A stretch of DNA of 29,214 bases from a virus. The notes under the pieces were generated by a model that saw only the letters and a program-made list of their open reading frames with translations, was not told where the DNA came from and did not search any database. Where the stretch lies: IMG/VR virus record IMGVR_UViG_3300021964_000355, positions 1-29,214 of that record. One strand, given 5' to 3'. The position numbers and the translations under genes were made by a program. Below, piece after piece: positions 1,274 to 28,849 of the stretch. Each line of letters begins with the position of its first letter. Within the stretch, counting starts at the first letter, position 1.

Positions 1274-1318
1274 TAATAGGGGGCGCATAAATAGTTATGC
1301 GATGCCCCCTATTATTTT
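1274..1318 (+). terminator. Terminator hairpin between gp19 and gp20
   Basis: An 11-bp outer stem (1274-1284 with 1304-1314, containing GGGGGC/GCCCCC) continues through a 3-base bulge (1301-1303) into a 6-bp inner stem (1285-1290 with 1295-1300) closed by a 4-base loop. TTTT follows directly. This is a good rho-independent terminator for the highly expressed tube gene. A late promoter box sits inside the hairpin. Confidence 0.8.
1286..1293 (+). promoter_or_regulatory. Probable late promoter box for gene 20, inside a terminator hairpin
   Basis: CATAAATA matches the late consensus at seven of eight positions and occupies the inner stem and loop of the preceding terminator. Initiation at the usual distance would fall near 1299. 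Transcripts started here would carry only the 3' half of the hairpin and could not form the terminator. Confidence 0.55.
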
Positions 1319-6796: not shown

Positions 6797-6832
6797 GAAA
6801 AAGAGTTGGGCTAACCAACCTTCGAATTACAG

Positions 6833-6859
6833 GGGAGAGTCTTCGGACTCTCCCTTTTT
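6833..6859 (+). terminator. Strong rho-independent terminator after gene 23
   Basis: A perfect 9-bp stem, GGGAGAGTC (6833-6841) with GACTCTCCC (6846-6854), closes a TTCG loop. The C(UUCG)G arrangement is an exceptionally stable RNA tetraloop, and TTTTT follows directly. It insulates the most abundant late mRNA. Confidence 0.95.
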
Positions 6860-6864
6860 CGTTA

Positions 6865-6872
6865 TATAAATA
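6865..6872 (+). promoter_or_regulatory. T4-type late promoter after the gp23 terminator
   Basis: Exact TATAAATA beginning 6 bases after the T-run of the gp23 terminator and 25 bases before the next start codon. TAAGGAG serves as ribosome site. Confidence 0.78.
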
Positions 6873-9893: not shown

Positions 9894-10463
9894 ATGGAAA
9901 AGAAAAAAAGACAACGACAAAATTATGTAGATAATAAAAAATTCTTGGCAGCTATGATTGAGTTTCGTGATTCGGTTATAGAAGCGGAGGAAAAGGGAGA
10001 AAGGCGACCAATGGTTCCAAACTACGTCGCTGAATGTATTATGAAGATTGCTATACATTTATCATATAAACCAAACTTCTCGAACTATACCTTTAGAGAA
10101 GATATGATTAGCGATGGCGTTGAGAATTGTCTTCAATATATTGACAATTTTAATCCAGATAAATCCAATAATCCATTTGCCTATTTTACACAAATAATAT
10201 ATTATGCATTCTTGAGACGTATTCAAAAGGAAAAGAAACATCTCTATACGAAGTATAAAGTCTCTGAACACGTCAATGTATTTGACATGACGAGTGAGAA
10301 CCAAGAAGGCGATGATGGTAGCTATATCGAAAAGGGCAAGGCTAACGAATGGTCGCAAGAATATATGTCAGAGTTTATTGAGAACTTTGAAGAAACAAAA
10401 CGCAAAAAGAAAAAGAAAAAGACTAGCGTATCAACTTTGGACAAATTTATAGCGGATGAATAA
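9894..10463 (+). CDS. 55: Late transcription sigma factor gp55
   Basis: Divergent sigma factor that directs host RNA polymerase to TATAAATA late promoters. The 189 residues contain the conserved core FREDMISDGVENCLQYIDNF followed by NPFAYFTQIIYYAFLRRIQKEKK, equivalent to sigma region 2. The C-terminus has a basic Lys run and then STLDKFIADE. TLDKFI resembles the short hydrophobic tail with which T4 gp55 binds the gp45 clamp. The start is 2 bases after the preceding stop codon. Its target sites are visible in this window at 2851, 4244, 5372, 6865 and 28345. Confidence 0.94.
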   Translation: MEKKKRQRQNYVDNKKFLAAMIEFRDSVIEAEEKGERRPMVPNYVAECIMKIAIHLSYKPNFSNYTFREDMISDGVENCLQYIDNFNPDKSNNPFAYFTQIIYYAFLRRIQKEKKHLYTKYKVSEHVNVFDMTSENQEGDDGSYIEKGKANEWSQEYMSEFIENFEETKRKKKKKKTSVSTLDKFIADE

Positions 10464-20537: not shown

Positions 20538-22652
20538 ATGTCCTTAAATATTACCAGTAAAGAAGTCTTGGCGAGGTTGATGGCTAATGAGAACATCACC
20601 GTCGTTCACAAGAAAACCGAGACAGCTTCCTTTGATGTGAAGAATCGTGTTCTCACGCTTCCTCAGTGGAAAGACATGGGCAATGAGACTTATGACCATC
20701 TTGTTGGTCATGAAGTTGGGCACTCTTTATATACTCCAGCTGATGAATGGTTCGCTGCCTGTAAAGATAAAGACGAAGGGTATCGTAGTTTCGTCAACGT
20801 CATTGAAGATGCTCGTATCGAAAAATTAATTCAGCGTCGCTATCCTGGATTGCGTCGTTCATTCATCAAGTCATATCGTAAAATGTTGGCTGATGGTTTC
20901 TTCGGCAAAGACGAAGCTGAAATTAACAACTTCAAATTAATCGACCGCCTCAATGTTTTCTTCAAATGCGGTGCTTCGCTTGGTGTTGAATTTTCTTCCA
21001 ACGAACGTGATTGGGTTAAGAAAATTGAAAACGCTGAGACCTTCCAAGATGTTCTTAATATCGCCAACGGTTTATATGGCGATGCCTCTGAAGAGTATGA
21101 GAAAGAACAAGAAATCAAACGACTTGCCATGTTCGGTGAAGATGGTGAAGGCGAAGACGATGAAGAAGATGGTGATGAAGTTGAAATTCCATTCGGCGGT
21201 GGTAATGACGACGACTTCGAAGACGCTGAAGAAATTGAAACCGATGAAGAAAGCGATGACACTTTCGTTGGCCAAGGTGCTGGCGAACAAGAAGTTGATG
21301 GACCGCTCTCTGAAACCGATCGTGCTTTGCAGCAAAATATCTTTAACACTTTTGTTGATGGTAATATTGAAGTCAACAATTTCTTTTTGAATGATTGTAA
21401 AATTGATGGTCTTATTGAAGACTATAAACAAATTATTGAAAAACATTCTACAGAAGAATATGCCGATCTTCGTGAAGCTGGTGCAGAGATGTTTAAGAAT
21501 TTCAATCTTAACAGCAAAAACTCAATCAACTATATGGTAAAAGAATTTGAAATGCGCAAGTCTGCGGCAGCATACAGTCGTGCTAAGATTGCCAAAACTG
21601 GTGTGATTGATTCTGTGAAAATGAATAATTACAAATTCAGCGATGACATCTTTCGCAAAATGACAGTACTGCCTGAAGGTAAGAACCATGGAATGATTAT
21701 GTTTATTGACTGGTCTGGTTCAATGGCTGAGCACCTGAAAAACACATTTGATCAGCTTTTGAATATGGTTCTGTTTTGTAAGCAAGTGAATATCCCATTC
21801 GAAGTCTATGCGTTTACAGATCGCCGTTCAAATAATAATTCACAAAACTTTTCTCAAACTCAAGTCGATAATCAATTGATGTATAGTTCAGAATTTGGTT
21901 TAATGAAATTTTTTGATAATAAAATGAACCGCAAACAGTTGAGTGAAATGGCTGGGATTCTTTTGGCAACAGCCACTTATTTCAATTCCAGAAAACAATA
22001 TTCAATAAACTATGACTTGTGGTTGGGTGGAACACCACTTGCTGAAACGATTATGGCTGCATTTAAAGTTTATGAAAATTTCAAAAAGTCTAATCGTTGC
22101 GATATCGTCAATACAATCTTTTTGACTGATGGAGACGGGGACTATATTGATGTTGCTTTTCAAAATCAATATGGAGTTCTTAGAGAAGCAAGAGTTGGAT
22201 CGTTCTTTAGCACATGGAAAGATACAACAAAAATAGTTAATCTTGTAGATCCTGTTACAAAAAAATCATATCGTGCTAATCATTCGAATGACATTTCTGC
22301 AACGTTGTTGAAAATGTATCGTGACCGCACTGGTGAAACAGTAATTGGATATCGTTTGGTTCCTTCAACTAAAGGTCGTTTTATCAGTCAAATAGGTTGG
22401 GACTTGGGTTATAGTGAAAAGTATACTGCTTGGGAAGAACTTAAAAAGCATCGTTTCACTACCATTAAATCTAAAGCATATGATGAATATTTCCTTATCC
22501 TTGGTGGTAAAAATCTGGAAACCTCAAATGGTGAAATCGAGGTGGCCAGCGACGCTTCTAAAGCCAAGATTCGGTCTGCCTTCCGCAAAGCGAATACAGG
22601 AAAGCGTGAGAGCCGTGTATTATTATCAAAATTTATTGAAAAAATTGCATAA
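20538..22652 (+). CDS. CobT-like VWA-domain protein with N-terminal zincin motif
   Basis: A 704-residue protein with three parts. Residues about 50-100 hold GHEVGHSLYTPADEW, an HEXXH zinc-protease motif at 58-62, and a downstream VIEDARIE that could give the third metal ligand. Residues about 195-265 are a long Asp/Glu-rich linker. From about 385 comes a VWA domain with the complete MIDAS: DWSGS at 391-395, GGTPLAE and LTDGDGDY. Architecture and the AAA+ partner downstream resemble CobT/CobS and MoxR/VWA pairs. Cobalt chelation is doubtful: no CobN-type subunit is seen and the metallopeptidase motif suggests another client. It begins after TTAGGAG. Confidence 0.85.
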   Translation: MSLNITSKEVLARLMANENITVVHKKTETASFDVKNRVLTLPQWKDMGNETYDHLVGHEVGHSLYTPADEWFAACKDKDEGYRSFVNVIEDARIEKLIQRRYPGLRRSFIKSYRKMLADGFFGKDEAEINNFKLIDRLNVFFKCGASLGVEFSSNERDWVKKIENAETFQDVLNIANGLYGDASEEYEKEQEIKRLAMFGEDGEGEDDEEDGDEVEIPFGGGNDDDFEDAEEIETDEESDDTFVGQGAGEQEVDGPLSETDRALQQNIFNTFVDGNIEVNNFFLNDCKIDGLIEDYKQIIEKHSTEEYADLREAGAEMFKNFNLNSKNSINYMVKEFEMRKSAAAYSRAKIAKTGVIDSVKMNNYKFSDDIFRKMTVLPEGKNHGMIMFIDWSGSMAEHLKNTFDQLLNMVLFCKQVNIPFEVYAFTDRRSNNNSQNFSQTQVDNQLMYSSEFGLMKFFDNKMNRKQLSEMAGILLATATYFNSRKQYSINYDLWLGGTPLAETIMAAFKVYENFKKSNRCDIVNTIFLTDGDGDYIDVAFQNQYGVLREARVGSFFSTWKDTTKIVNLVDPVTKKSYRANHSNDISATLLKMYRDRTGETVIGYRLVPSTKGRFISQIGWDLGYSEKYTAWEELKKHRFTTIKSKAYDEYFLILGGKNLETSNGEIEVASDASKAKIRSAFRKANTGKRESRVLLSKFIEKIA

Positions 22653-22720: not shown

Positions 22721-23881
22721 ATGAAATTGAATGCTAAACAAATTGCTTTTGTGCAGCTTGCTATTGAAAATGTTGGTGGTAATGAGATCACCAATAAGCA
22801 AATCAATGAGATCGTGAAGAACGAAAATGTCTCATATCCAAGCTGGTTGGCCAGCGACGCTTATCGTATCGGTCGTGGTCTGTATCGACTCCCCAATATC
22901 ATGGGAGAAGCTGAGGTTGAAGAGACCGCCGAAGTTGCGCTTCAAACCAAACAGTTGGTTGGCGATCTGAACGTTGATACCAATGGCTTTACTGAAAACT
23001 TGGTTCCTGAAGTTGACGACCTCTTCGTTGCTTTCGGCGAGTTCAAATCAGTAAAGCAGATTCTGAAGTCAAAATTATTTTATCCGATTTACATTACTGG
23101 TCTTTCTGGTAATGGTAAGACATTTGGTGTTGAGCAAGCCTGTGCTCAGTTGAAACGTGAAGTCATCCGTGTCAACTTCACTGTTGAAACCGACGAGGAT
23201 GACCTGATTGGTGGCTTCCGTCTAGTAAATGGTGACACCAAATACTTCAAAGGTCCAGTGATCAATGCTATGGAAAAAGGTGCGGTCTTGCTCCTTGATG
23301 AGATCGATCTGGCTAATCCTGCGAAGGTCATGTGCCTTCAGTCTATTCTTGAGGGTAAAGGATACTTCATCAAAAAGACTGGCGAGTTTATCAAACCTGC
23401 TAAGGGATTCACAGTCGTTGCGACTGCAAACACGAAAGGCAAGGGTTCAGAGGATGGTCGTTTCATCGGCACTAACGTAATGAACGAAGCATTCCTTGAG
23501 CGTTTCCCAATCACCTTTGAACAGGAATATGCCCCTGTTGCTGTCGAGAAAAAGATCCTCAGCAAAGTCTTTGAGAGTCTTGAAGTTGATGATGTTGAGT
23601 TTGTTGAGAAACTTGTAGACTGGGCTGACATCATTCGTAAGACTTTCTATGATGGTGGTGTTGACGAAGTTATCTCTACTCGTCGTCTGGTACACATTGC
23701 GAAAGCATACTCTATCTTTGAAGATCGTATGCGTTCCATCGAAGTTTGTATCAATCGCTTTGATGAAGATACGAAACAGTCCTTCAAAGATCTCTATACC
23801 AAGATCGATGCGGATGTGATTCCAGAGCAAGAGCAAGAAGTCGAAAATAATTTAGAAACGACTGATGAAGTTCCTTTCTAA
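22721..23881 (+). CDS. MoxR/CobS-type AAA+ ATPase
   Basis: A 386-residue ATPase of the type usually annotated CobS in T4-like cyanophages. The N-terminal about 60 residues form a small helical domain (KLNAKQIAFVQLAIENVGG). The AAA+ module has Walker A GLSGNGKT at 127-134, the MoxR-type insert NFTVETDEDDLIGGFRL, Walker B LLLDEID at 190-196, sensor 1 ATANT and EAFLERF with the arginine finger. The C-terminus is acidic. It is adjacent to the VWA/zincin gene but has its own promoter. The pair is best viewed as an ATPase that remodels a target presented by the VWA protein. A vitamin B12 role is possible but not supported here. Confidence 0.88.
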   Translation: MKLNAKQIAFVQLAIENVGGNEITNKQINEIVKNENVSYPSWLASDAYRIGRGLYRLPNIMGEAEVEETAEVALQTKQLVGDLNVDTNGFTENLVPEVDDLFVAFGEFKSVKQILKSKLFYPIYITGLSGNGKTFGVEQACAQLKREVIRVNFTVETDEDDLIGGFRLVNGDTKYFKGPVINAMEKGAVLLLDEIDLANPAKVMCLQSILEGKGYFIKKTGEFIKPAKGFTVVATANTKGKGSEDGRFIGTNVMNEAFLERFPITFEQEYAPVAVEKKILSKVFESLEVDDVEFVEKLVDWADIIRKTFYDGGVDEVISTRRLVHIAKAYSIFEDRMRSIEVCINRFDEDTKQSFKDLYTKIDADVIPEQEQEVENNLETTDEVPF

Positions 23882-24831: not shown

Positions 24832-25124
24832 TGAGCAAATTTAAATTTAATGAGGATAAGATCCTCAAAGAACTTTATGATTATGTGGCTGCAACCTATG
24901 ATGGGCATTATGCTCTTAATAAGTTTCAGTCAACCGAGTTTATAATTGACAATGGACACGGTGAAGGATTCTGTCTTGGCAACATTATCAAATATGCGCA
25001 ACGCTATGGTAAAAAAGAAGGCAAGAACAGAAAAGACTTGCTAAAAGTCGCACATTATGCTATAATTGCATTGTATATTAACTCTCTTGAAAATAATGAG
25101 GTGAATGAAGATGAAGATCAGTGA
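24831..25124 (+). CDS. DUF3310-type small protein
   Basis: A 97-residue protein beginning at ATG 24831, overlapping the previous stop codon by one base (TGATG). GNIIKYAQRYGKKEGKNRKDLLKVAHYAIIAL matches in pattern the DUF3310 family of phage proteins, whose common signature is a Gly-Asn-x-x-x-Lys-Tyr-x-x-Arg segment followed by Asp-Leu and a helical Ala-x-x-Tyr region. The biochemical role is unknown. The C-terminus is acidic. It overlaps the start of gp45 by 14 bases. Confidence 0.8.
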   Translation: MSKFKFNEDKILKELYDYVAATYDGHYALNKFQSTEFIIDNGHGEGFCLGNIIKYAQRYGKKEGKNRKDLLKVAHYAIIALYINSLENNEVNEDEDQ

Positions 25125-25776
25125 AGAAACATTTGACGTATTGAAAAACTTTTCATCAATCAATCCGTCTATTGCCATCAAACAAGGTAATGTGATTCGT
25201 ACAATTTCTGAGCAGAAGAATATTTTGGCTCAAGCAGTTGTAAATGAATCCATGCCTGTAGACTATGCAATCTATGACTTGAATCAGTTTTTGGGTCTTT
25301 CGAGTTTATTCGAAGAACCAGACTTTGCTTTTGGCGAAATGGATGTGACCATTCGTGATAATAATACTCGTTCACGTTACACATTCACCGACCCAGCAAT
25401 GATCACTTCTCCTCCGGAGAAAAACATTCAGTTGGATTCCCCTGAGATCGATTTCCAAATGCCGTATGCTTCTCTGAAGCGTGTTATCAATGGCGCCAAT
25501 CAGCTTGGCTTGCCAGAGATCGCTGTGCGTGGTGGTGCTGGGATTATCTCTCTTGTTGCTACGAATACCAAAAACCCAACAACGAATGAGTTTAGTGTTG
25601 ACGTCGGTCAAACGAATGCGAACTTCCAGATGATTTTCAAAACTGAGAATCTCAAATTTATGGCTCTTGACTATTCTGTTAAGATTTCTTCAAAGGGCGT
25701 TTCTCAATTTACCAACGAATCAAAATCAATTGATTATTGGGTTGCCACAGAAGCAGGAAGCGAGTATAATGGCTAA
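25111..25776 (+). CDS. 45: Sliding clamp gp45
   Basis: Ring-shaped processivity factor for DNA polymerase and, in T4, the mobile activator of late transcription through gp55 and gp33. I start at ATG 25111, seven bases after AGGTGA; ATG 25105 is too close to it. The 221-residue product opens KISEETFDVLKNFSSINPS, which aligns with the T4 gp45 N-terminus, and contains VDYAIYDLNQFLGLSSLF, equivalent to T4 VAIYDLNGFLGILSL. Its clients in this window include gp43, gp55 and possibly the modification enzymes. Confidence 0.95.
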   Translation: MKISEETFDVLKNFSSINPSIAIKQGNVIRTISEQKNILAQAVVNESMPVDYAIYDLNQFLGLSSLFEEPDFAFGEMDVTIRDNNTRSRYTFTDPAMITSPPEKNIQLDSPEIDFQMPYASLKRVINGANQLGLPEIAVRGGAGIISLVATNTKNPTTNEFSVDVGQTNANFQMIFKTENLKFMALDYSVKISSKGVSQFTNESKSIDYWVATEAGSEYNG

Positions 25777-27829: not shown

Positions 27830-28237
27830 ATGACCAGAACACAATCTTTATTTCCGCAATCTGCGTTTATTGGTTTTGAACGTCTTTTGGATGATATGGA
27901 ATTTGCAACAAAACATGCTAATGACCATTATCCTCCACATAATATCATTAAAGAAAGCGATACAGAATACACCATTGAGGTGGCTGTTGCAGGCTTTTCG
28001 AAAGAAGACATCAAAGTCGAGCAGAAAGAAAGATCACTGAAGATCACTGGCGAATACAAGTCTAAAGGGCGTGATGTAATCCATCGTGGAATTTCAACAC
28101 GAAACTTCAAAAGACAATTTCGCCTTTCCGAGTATGTTCAAGTAACTGGAGCATCTTTTCGAGACGGTCTACTTGCAGTAACATTGAAGATAGAAATCCC
28201 AGAAGAGAAGCAGCCTCGTCAAATCACTATCGATTAA
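27830..28237 (+). CDS. Small heat shock protein Hsp20
   Basis: Holdase chaperone that keeps unfolding proteins soluble. The alpha-crystallin domain spans about residues 37-125: PPHNIIKESDTEYTIEVAVAGFSKEDIKV, SLKITGEYKSKG, HRGISTRNFKRQFRL and ASFRDGLLAVTLKIEIPE. The C-terminal PRQITID is a variant of the IbpA-type tail. It has 135 residues. Hsp20 genes are frequent in T4-like phages of aquatic bacteria, where they are thought to aid virion protein folding. The start follows AAAGGAGATAAC. Confidence 0.95.
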   Translation: MTRTQSLFPQSAFIGFERLLDDMEFATKHANDHYPPHNIIKESDTEYTIEVAVAGFSKEDIKVEQKERSLKITGEYKSKGRDVIHRGISTRNFKRQFRLSEYVQVTGASFRDGLLAVTLKIEIPEEKQPRQITID

Positions 28238-28344: not shown

Positions 28345-28352
28345 TATAAATA
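28345..28352 (+). promoter_or_regulatory. T4-type late promoter for the lysozyme gene
   Basis: Exact TATAAATA starting 7 bases after the membrane peptide stop codon. Initiation at the normal distance would be at about 28358, within the hairpin that follows. It places lysozyme under gp55 control, in the middle of early-type genes. Confidence 0.75.
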
Positions 28353-28353
28353 A

Positions 28354-28373
28354 GGGGAGGCGAAAGTCTCCCC
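28354..28373 (+). terminator. Probable terminator hairpin before lysozyme
   Basis: An 8-pair stem, GGGGAGGC (28354-28361) with GTCTCCCC (28366-28373), including one G-T pair, closes a GAAA tetraloop, a stable GNRA type. The following bases are T-rich (ATTTATTTT) but not an immediate T-run. It would stop read-through from hsp20, while late transcripts starting at about 28358 lack its full 5' arm. Confidence 0.62.
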
Positions 28374-28402
28374 GATTTATTTTAAACTAAGGAGTTAGCA
28401 TA

Positions 28403-28849
28403 ATGAATAGAGAATCTGTATTCGAACAATTAAAAATCGACGAAGGCGTCGAGTATGAAGTTTACAAAGACCACCTTGGTTATCCAACATTCGGTGTAGG
28501 TCATCTTATCCTCGAATCAGATCCAGAGCATGGCGCAGAAGTCGGAACTCCTGTGAGCGAAGATCGTGTTAAAGAATGCTTTGAAAAAGATCTAGACATC
28601 GCAATTGATGAGTGTAAAGTATTGTATGAAAACTGGGATGATTTTCCAGGTGAAGTACAAGAAGTTCTCGTCAACATGATGTTCAATATGGGTCGTCCAC
28701 GTTTGAGTGGTTTTAAAAACTTTAAAGCGGCACTTGATGAAGGCGATTGGGCACGTGCTGGTGTTGAAGGTCGTGACTCCAGATGGTACAAACAAGTAGG
28801 CAATCGTGCTGAAAGACTTATGGCACGTCTTGAGGCTCTAGCAGACTAG
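28403..28849 (+). CDS. e: T4-type lysozyme (glycoside hydrolase 24 endolysin)
   Basis: Cuts peptidoglycan glycan strands. The catalytic triad of T4 lysozyme is conserved in order and spacing: Glu14 (KIDEG), Asp23 (YKDHLG) and Thr29 (YPTFGVGH). Further conserved segments are NMMFNMGRPRLSGFKNF and SRWYKQVGNRAERL, matching T4 FQMGETGVAGF and SRWYNQTPNRAKRV. It has 148 residues, 16 fewer than T4, and no signal peptide, so it would need a holin to reach the wall. The start follows AAGGAG. Confidence 0.95.
   Translation: MNRESVFEQLKIDEGVEYEVYKDHLGYPTFGVGHLILESDPEHGAEVGTPVSEDRVKECFEKDLDIAIDECKVLYENWDDFPGEVQEVLVNMMFNMGRPRLSGFKNFKAALDEGDWARAGVEGRDSRWYKQVGNRAERLMARLEALAD

Follow-up and report, generated by a model that had tools for sequence, protein, structure and literature searches.

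The tail tube–portal junction

The window, by which we mean the whole stretch of DNA analysed here, comprises 29,214 bases of virus record IMGVR_UViG_3300021964_000355 and carries T4-type structural genes. Profile matches identify the end of the tail sheath gene at 1–672, followed on the plus strand by a gp19-like tail tube gene at 700–1251 (Pfam PF06841, E 2.7e-7; phrog_45, tail tube) and a gp20-like portal gene at 1333–2844 (Pfam PF07230, E 1.8e-179); the protease, the scaffold and the major capsid protein gp23 are also encoded. The products of such structural genes are needed in very different amounts, with many copies of the tail tube protein and one portal ring. A near-identity search of the named phage collection returned nothing matching the window. 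Three auxiliary genes lie further downstream: the best PHROG match of 20538–22652 is a peptidase family, with an additional weak match to cobalamin biosynthesis; that of 22721–23881 is a porphyrin biosynthesis family, which we take to be CobS-like; and that of 27830–28237 is an Hsp20 protein.

An 81-base gap separates gp19 from gp20. RNAfold predicts a hairpin here in which 1270–1290 (the 5′ arm, plus strand) pairs with 1295–1318 (the 3′ arm, with a three-base bulge at 1301–1303) around a four-base loop at 1291–1294. With a free energy of −27.1 kcal/mol this is the lowest-energy 60-base fold across the whole window, and it has the G–C-rich stem-loop expected of an intrinsic terminator. A late-promoter-like box, CATAAATA, lies at 1286–1293 on the plus strand and occupies the inner stem together with three of the four loop bases. 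The original prediction had placed such a box within a hairpin behind gp19, in its inner stem and loop; sequence and fold bear this out, and the span that it gave, 1274–1318, is correct to within four bases. In T4 numbering the box begins at −13 (accessible sections of PMC2988020), which puts the predicted +1 of box-started transcripts at 1299 on the plus strand, in agreement with the start of about 1299 proposed originally. Past the G–C core of the stem lies a T-rich tail, TATTATTTTATT, at 1310–1321, and the Shine–Dalgarno-like GAGGA of gp20 (1322–1326) stands just outside the stem.

Identity of the box

T4-type late promoters have a TATAAATA-type box beginning at −13 and no −35 element, a pattern that CATAAATA follows with one departure, at −13. 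Changes at −13 also occur among T4 late sites, and Aeh1 late promoters take an a/gC form at −13/−12, as described in the accessible sections of PMC2988020. Promoters of this type are further characterized by a gp55 sigma factor and a gp45 clamp, and both are phage-encoded in the window: a gp55-like late sigma factor, the putative reader of the box, at 9894–10463 (plus strand; phrog_234, E 7.3e-62; 43% to DLP6 gp55 by tblastn), and a gp45-like sliding clamp, the activator of late transcription in T4, at 25105–25776 (plus strand; 46% to the DLP6 clamp by tblastn, E 1e-61). The boxes of relatives are found in T, C, A or AC- forms; over 32 gaps, TATAAATA occurs 15 times, CATAAATA and ACTAAATA eight times each and AATAAATA once. 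These 32 gaps were selected for the presence of a box, and the clade count (32/33) is therefore the conservation figure to use.

It is very improbable that CATAAATA is a chance match and that the gap contains a hairpin alone. Composition predicts 9.0 occurrences of ATAAATA on the plus strand of the window, where 10 are seen, the C at −13 differs from the letter commonest in T4, and one relative, L020, has the hairpin without a plus-strand box. Against chance, seven of the 10 ATAAATA sites lie 25–58 bases ahead of a start codon (binomial P 2.7e-7), and the box is present in 32/33 clade gaps although neighbouring columns vary (over the 32 box-selected rows). On the minus strand, ATAAATA is expected 5.6 times by composition and is not seen. 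All 10 of the NATAAATA sites in the window are on the plus strand and none on the minus strand, which fits a single direction of late genes.

A second late-promoter-like box, AATAAATA, is present upstream of gp19 at 671–678 on the plus strand, and a box no more than 80 nt upstream of gp19 is found in 28/33 members of the clade. As gp19 has a box of its own in these genomes, a stop behind it would create a separate unit.

Conservation of the nested arrangement

We took 80 gp19 relatives from IMG/VR, read their gp19–gp20 gaps and scored each for a G–C-rich hairpin enclosing the box; this score replaced a looser test that 32% of shuffles passed. Nested gaps score from 24 to 42.5. The same score, applied to 3000 mononucleotide shuffles into which a box was inserted, reaches 21.0 at the 99% point, 28.0 at the 99.9% point and a maximum of 32.5. 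The window itself scores 42.5 against that maximum, so the nesting is more than chance. Other box contexts in the loci of the relatives reach 21 in 8 of 160 distinct cases, all of them AT-rich with 0–2 G–C pairs.

A gp19 tree of 164 rows (a quick tree in which long branches were flagged, the unsure rows including OspM_OC and RHph_I1_18) places the window in a clade of 33 rows with SH-aLRT support of 99. Scoring of the gap in related phages, whose alignment had been proposed at the outset as a check, found stem and box kept nested in 32 of the 33 distinct clade gaps: 31 by an automatic rule, plus L035, which is nested by the enclosing-hairpin score and a partial overlap by the automatic rule. 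The sole exception is L020, which has the hairpin only. At 2619–2688 of that locus there is no plus-strand box, and the loop ATTTATT is a near-box on the opposite strand, as if the loop had been inverted. Relatives that keep the hairpin and lose the box had been held to count against the original prediction; such cases exist, in L020 and in several phages outside the clade, and they show the two parts to be separable without making the nesting itself unreal.

The arms of the hairpin vary widely and, as a rule, retain their pairing. In an alignment-free test, arms were swapped between relatives with less than 70% arm identity (28 distinct arms over the 32 gaps): pairing of a gap's own arms scores 26.0, compared with 15.7 (s.d. 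3.4) for swapped arms, and 29 of 926 swaps reach the own-arm value, 13 of them from L012 and eight from L034. RNAalifold found no common pairs on a MAFFT alignment, in which the stems are misaligned, and this accounts for the result. The alignment also contains AAGTGAT shortly upstream of the hairpin in many relatives whose stems differ.

Transcripts that start at the box

When transcripts are begun at the predicted position, six bases beyond the box, the hairpin is lost in each of the 32 gaps folded. Mean folding energies over these gaps are −22.7 kcal/mol for the upstream RNA and −1.5 kcal/mol for the late RNA, the late RNAs lying above −8 in 32/32. The proposal that RNA started at about 1299 contains one arm only thus holds for the predicted start, both in the window and throughout this set, and the late start is predicted to fall inside the hairpin, as it does in T4 gene e and I-TevI.

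Those T4 genes share a second feature, masking of the downstream ribosome site, and this one finds no support here. Were the junction a translational mask of the gene e kind, upstream RNA would hide the ribosome site of the portal gene and late RNA would free it. The start of the gap can indeed pair with the Shine–Dalgarno sequence in some relatives (in L044, 0 of 60 flank shuffles pair as highly). Across the 32 gaps, though, the portal ribosome site has much the same mean probability of being paired in upstream RNA (0.49), with a shuffled flank (0.50) and in late RNA (0.54), and in the window the site lies outside the stem. Masking as a general feature was rejected on these values, and we regard a translational role of this kind as highly implausible.

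Termination at the hairpin

Whether the hairpin also ends transcripts was judged by the T run that follows it. The tail in the window gives an nT of 3.82 and a d-score of +5.1. The d-score exceeds zero in 8 of 42 nested gaps, as against 8 of 9 gaps in which a hairpin and a separate box follow one another in series, and the nested hairpins of cyanophages fall to about −20 to −38. The first eight bases past the stem contain on average 4.40 T in nested gaps, compared with 2.67 on the opposite strand, 2.73 when the bases of the gap are shuffled and 6.11 in series gaps. A simple terminator scan did not list the hairpin at 1270–1318, and scans of this kind can overlook such elements. From these values, the hairpin in the window's clade is most likely a weak-to-moderate terminator, and it is put forward here as a candidate.

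The original prediction went further, in having one element end one unit and start the next. Its architectural part stands, in that hairpin and box are nested, are kept together in 32/33 clade gaps and have arms that co-vary. Its stop is the less secure part, given the weak T tail and a positive d-score in only 8/42.

The hairpin could instead serve mainly as a protector or processing site for the 3′ end of the gp19 message, with the box still starting portal transcripts that lack the hairpin. The weakness of the T tail in most nested gaps favours such a role, as does the occurrence at this junction in other phages of stable hairpins without T runs. The enrichment of T on the transcribed side only (4.40 versus 2.67 of eight) points the other way, and related phages have classic terminators at the same junction, so that we consider this reading rather unlikely.

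Distribution of the element

Nesting is confined to one place per genome. In a scan of the window and seven longer relatives, which covered 174 boxes on both strands, a G–C-rich hairpin enclosing a box is found once per record and always at the gp19/gp20 junction (8/8 records), with one weak extra case in G004. At the gp23 junction, a classic terminator with a T run is followed by a separate box in 6/6 genomes (the window plus five relatives, those in which this junction was located); in the window the terminator and the TATAAATA in series behind it are at 6831–6872. Nesting is thus not a general style of these genomes, and the strong terminators behind gp23 indicate that these phages are able to make a strong stop, yet do not do so between gp19 and gp20.

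Among other phages, the junction was surveyed in 270 loci representing 165 distinct gaps; eight loci were dropped because they had no next ORF within 300 bases, L009 (a copy of the window) was left out, and L104, L106 and L107 were read separately. The distinct gaps comprise 47 with a box only, 42 nested, 34 with neither part, 16 with a hairpin only, 10 with a box and then a hairpin, nine with a hairpin and then a box, and seven with a partial overlap. Hairpin and box are therefore separable parts that are variously combined at this junction. The hairpin threshold was strict: T4-type RB5, which has a short hairpin and then TATAAATA at the junction, thereby escapes the series class, near copies of it counting as box only and the RB5 row itself, via a false start codon, as neither.

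The nested label changes 10 times on the gp19 tree, at least five of these changes being forced by well-supported branches. Outside the window's clade, nesting is seen in the S-RIM4 cyanophage group (nine gaps), in Ochrobactrum phage vB_OspM_OC, for which a query found no relatives, and in L057. The nested box is GATAAATA in S-RIM4 and CATAAATA in vB_OspM_OC. Rhizobium phage RHph_I1_18 has TCTAAATA within the loop of a classic terminator bearing six T, which separates a homing endonuclease gene from the portal gene. In this region of the phage (L090, 3543–4395) the endonuclease gene stands between gp19 and gp20, and the gap ahead of it has a hairpin with GATAAATA in the outer part of its 5′ arm.

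Series gaps, with a hairpin and then a separate box, account for nine distinct gaps in other T4-like phages. The series phages (S-CRM01, S-CAM7, L058–L060, L071 and L079) resemble the window in the junction used, the two parts and the order of the genes, and differ from it in that the hairpin comes first, the box follows some bases later and the T run is long; the series-gap terminator of S-CRM01 is annotated as a terminator in its record. The reverse order, with a box ahead of a complete hairpin, occurs in 10 distinct gaps (23 loci). This suggests that a hairpin at the junction need not stop transcription, since, if the box drives the portal gene there, the hairpin that follows cannot be a strong terminator. 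In L242, L248, L254, L260, L269, L270 and L275, TATAAATA or CATAAATA directly follows the gp19 stop codon and precedes a complete, T-poor hairpin, which RNA started at the box would carry. In many cyanophage-like loci, among them L157, L160, L165, L176, L177 and L186, the box GATAAATA shares bases with the end of gp19's stop codon.

These arrangements bear on the view that the overlap merely saves space, promoter and hairpin working separately and overlapping, without regulatory effect, in a short gap. Nested gaps in the window's clade span 63–87 bases and IMG/VR series gaps 99–103, and the frequent overlap of GATAAATA with the gp19 stop codon in box-only gaps of cyanophage relatives indicates that boxes overlap whatever stands there. 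Space saving is nevertheless distinctly unlikely to be the whole account, as nesting is kept in 32/33 clade members and the same genomes use a series arrangement at the gp23 junction (6/6), nesting only once per genome.

A candidate stop-and-start element

From the observed sequence, geometry, co-variation, conservation and late sigma factor and clamp genes, we infer promoter use, termination and the strength of termination, and on balance we favour the reading that the gp19–gp20 gap is a fused stop-and-start element. In this group of T4-like phages, one short stretch of DNA would probably end one message and begin the next. As judged from sequence, a late promoter lying within a terminator of weak to moderate strength is the likeliest identity of the element, which would make it a variant of the T4 promoter-in-hairpin design.

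The layout is a box, gp19, a hairpin containing the next box, and gp20. Polymerase passing through gp19, mostly from the box at 671, would make RNA with both arms; the hairpin would fold behind the stop codon of gp19 and, together with the T-rich tail, might end part or most of the transcripts near 1312–1320. A gp55-type late polymerase would start at about 1299 from CATAAATA and continue into the portal gene, and because its RNA would have the 3′ arm only, the hairpin could not fold and passage into the portal gene would follow. With the stop point lying beyond the box, arriving polymerases would cross the promoter before stopping; gp20 would thereby be insulated from gp19 transcripts while its own promoter was left unshielded. 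In this respect the nested element is unlike a series arrangement, its promoter being exposed to through traffic, and some interference between through polymerase and promoter may be expected. It is possible, and we propose it tentatively, that the element is entry-dependent, a stop for polymerase arriving from gp19 and a start for the gp55 polymerase; as transcripts would stop only a little beyond the start site of the promoter, the two activities would interfere and set the ratio of tail tube to portal. Such an element would carry the T4 promoter-in-hairpin design over from the control of translation to the termination of transcription. If the fused reading is correct, it illustrates how compact phages insulate neighbouring structural genes whose products are needed in very different amounts.

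Relation to known systems

Late promoters concealed within RNA hairpins are best known from T4, the textbook example. The T4 genes e, I-TevI, I-TevII, I-TevIII and segB, and Aeh1 mobE, have late promoters inside hairpins that mask a ribosome site (accessible sections of PMC3014915 and PMC2988022). As described there, the hairpin folds in RNA begun upstream, while late RNA begins within the hairpin and lacks its 5′ part, as predicted for the window; the gene e-type hairpin covers the ribosome site of the gene that follows, whereas that of the window resembles a stop for the upstream gene. In Aeromonas phage 25, seg43(25) has a stable hairpin immediately ahead of a ribosome site that it leaves unmasked, the same relation as in the window, and differs in that the accessible sections of PMC2988022 report no late promoter nested in that hairpin.

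Promoter early stem-loops (PeSLs) of T4-type phages are composite promoter–terminator motifs that carry early promoters and mediate gene shuffling (accessible sections of PMC4503421). They share with the window element a promoter and a stem-loop within one short intergenic element; they carry early promoters, whereas the element here has a late box and is present once per genome, at one junction. Membership of this class was considered and rejected, as no sigma-70-type site was found on the plus strand in 1252–1332, leaving the stem-loop with no early promoter beside it, and the element is not a repeated or mobile cassette (nested once per record in 8/8, with the one weak extra in G004).

The geometry is thus known from T4. 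Its partnership with a stop-like hairpin and its conservation at one junction were not found in the literature searched, nor was any report of a terminator with a late promoter inside it; subscription papers lay mostly outside the scope of that search, which makes this weak evidence of absence. At the gp19/gp20 junction the T4 geometry accompanies a hairpin that resembles a stop; the arrangement persists over a large clade while the letters of the stem change, and it recurs elsewhere.

The window contains a second predicted overlap of promoter and hairpin, for which the seven longer relatives yielded no syntenic copy. It lies upstream of a phage lysozyme gene (28403–28849), lysozyme also being the product of T4 gene e. 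Here, at 28345–28376, TATAAATA stands directly ahead of a hairpin (GGGGAG...CTCCCC, then GATTTATTTT), and the predicted start would fall inside its 5′ arm.
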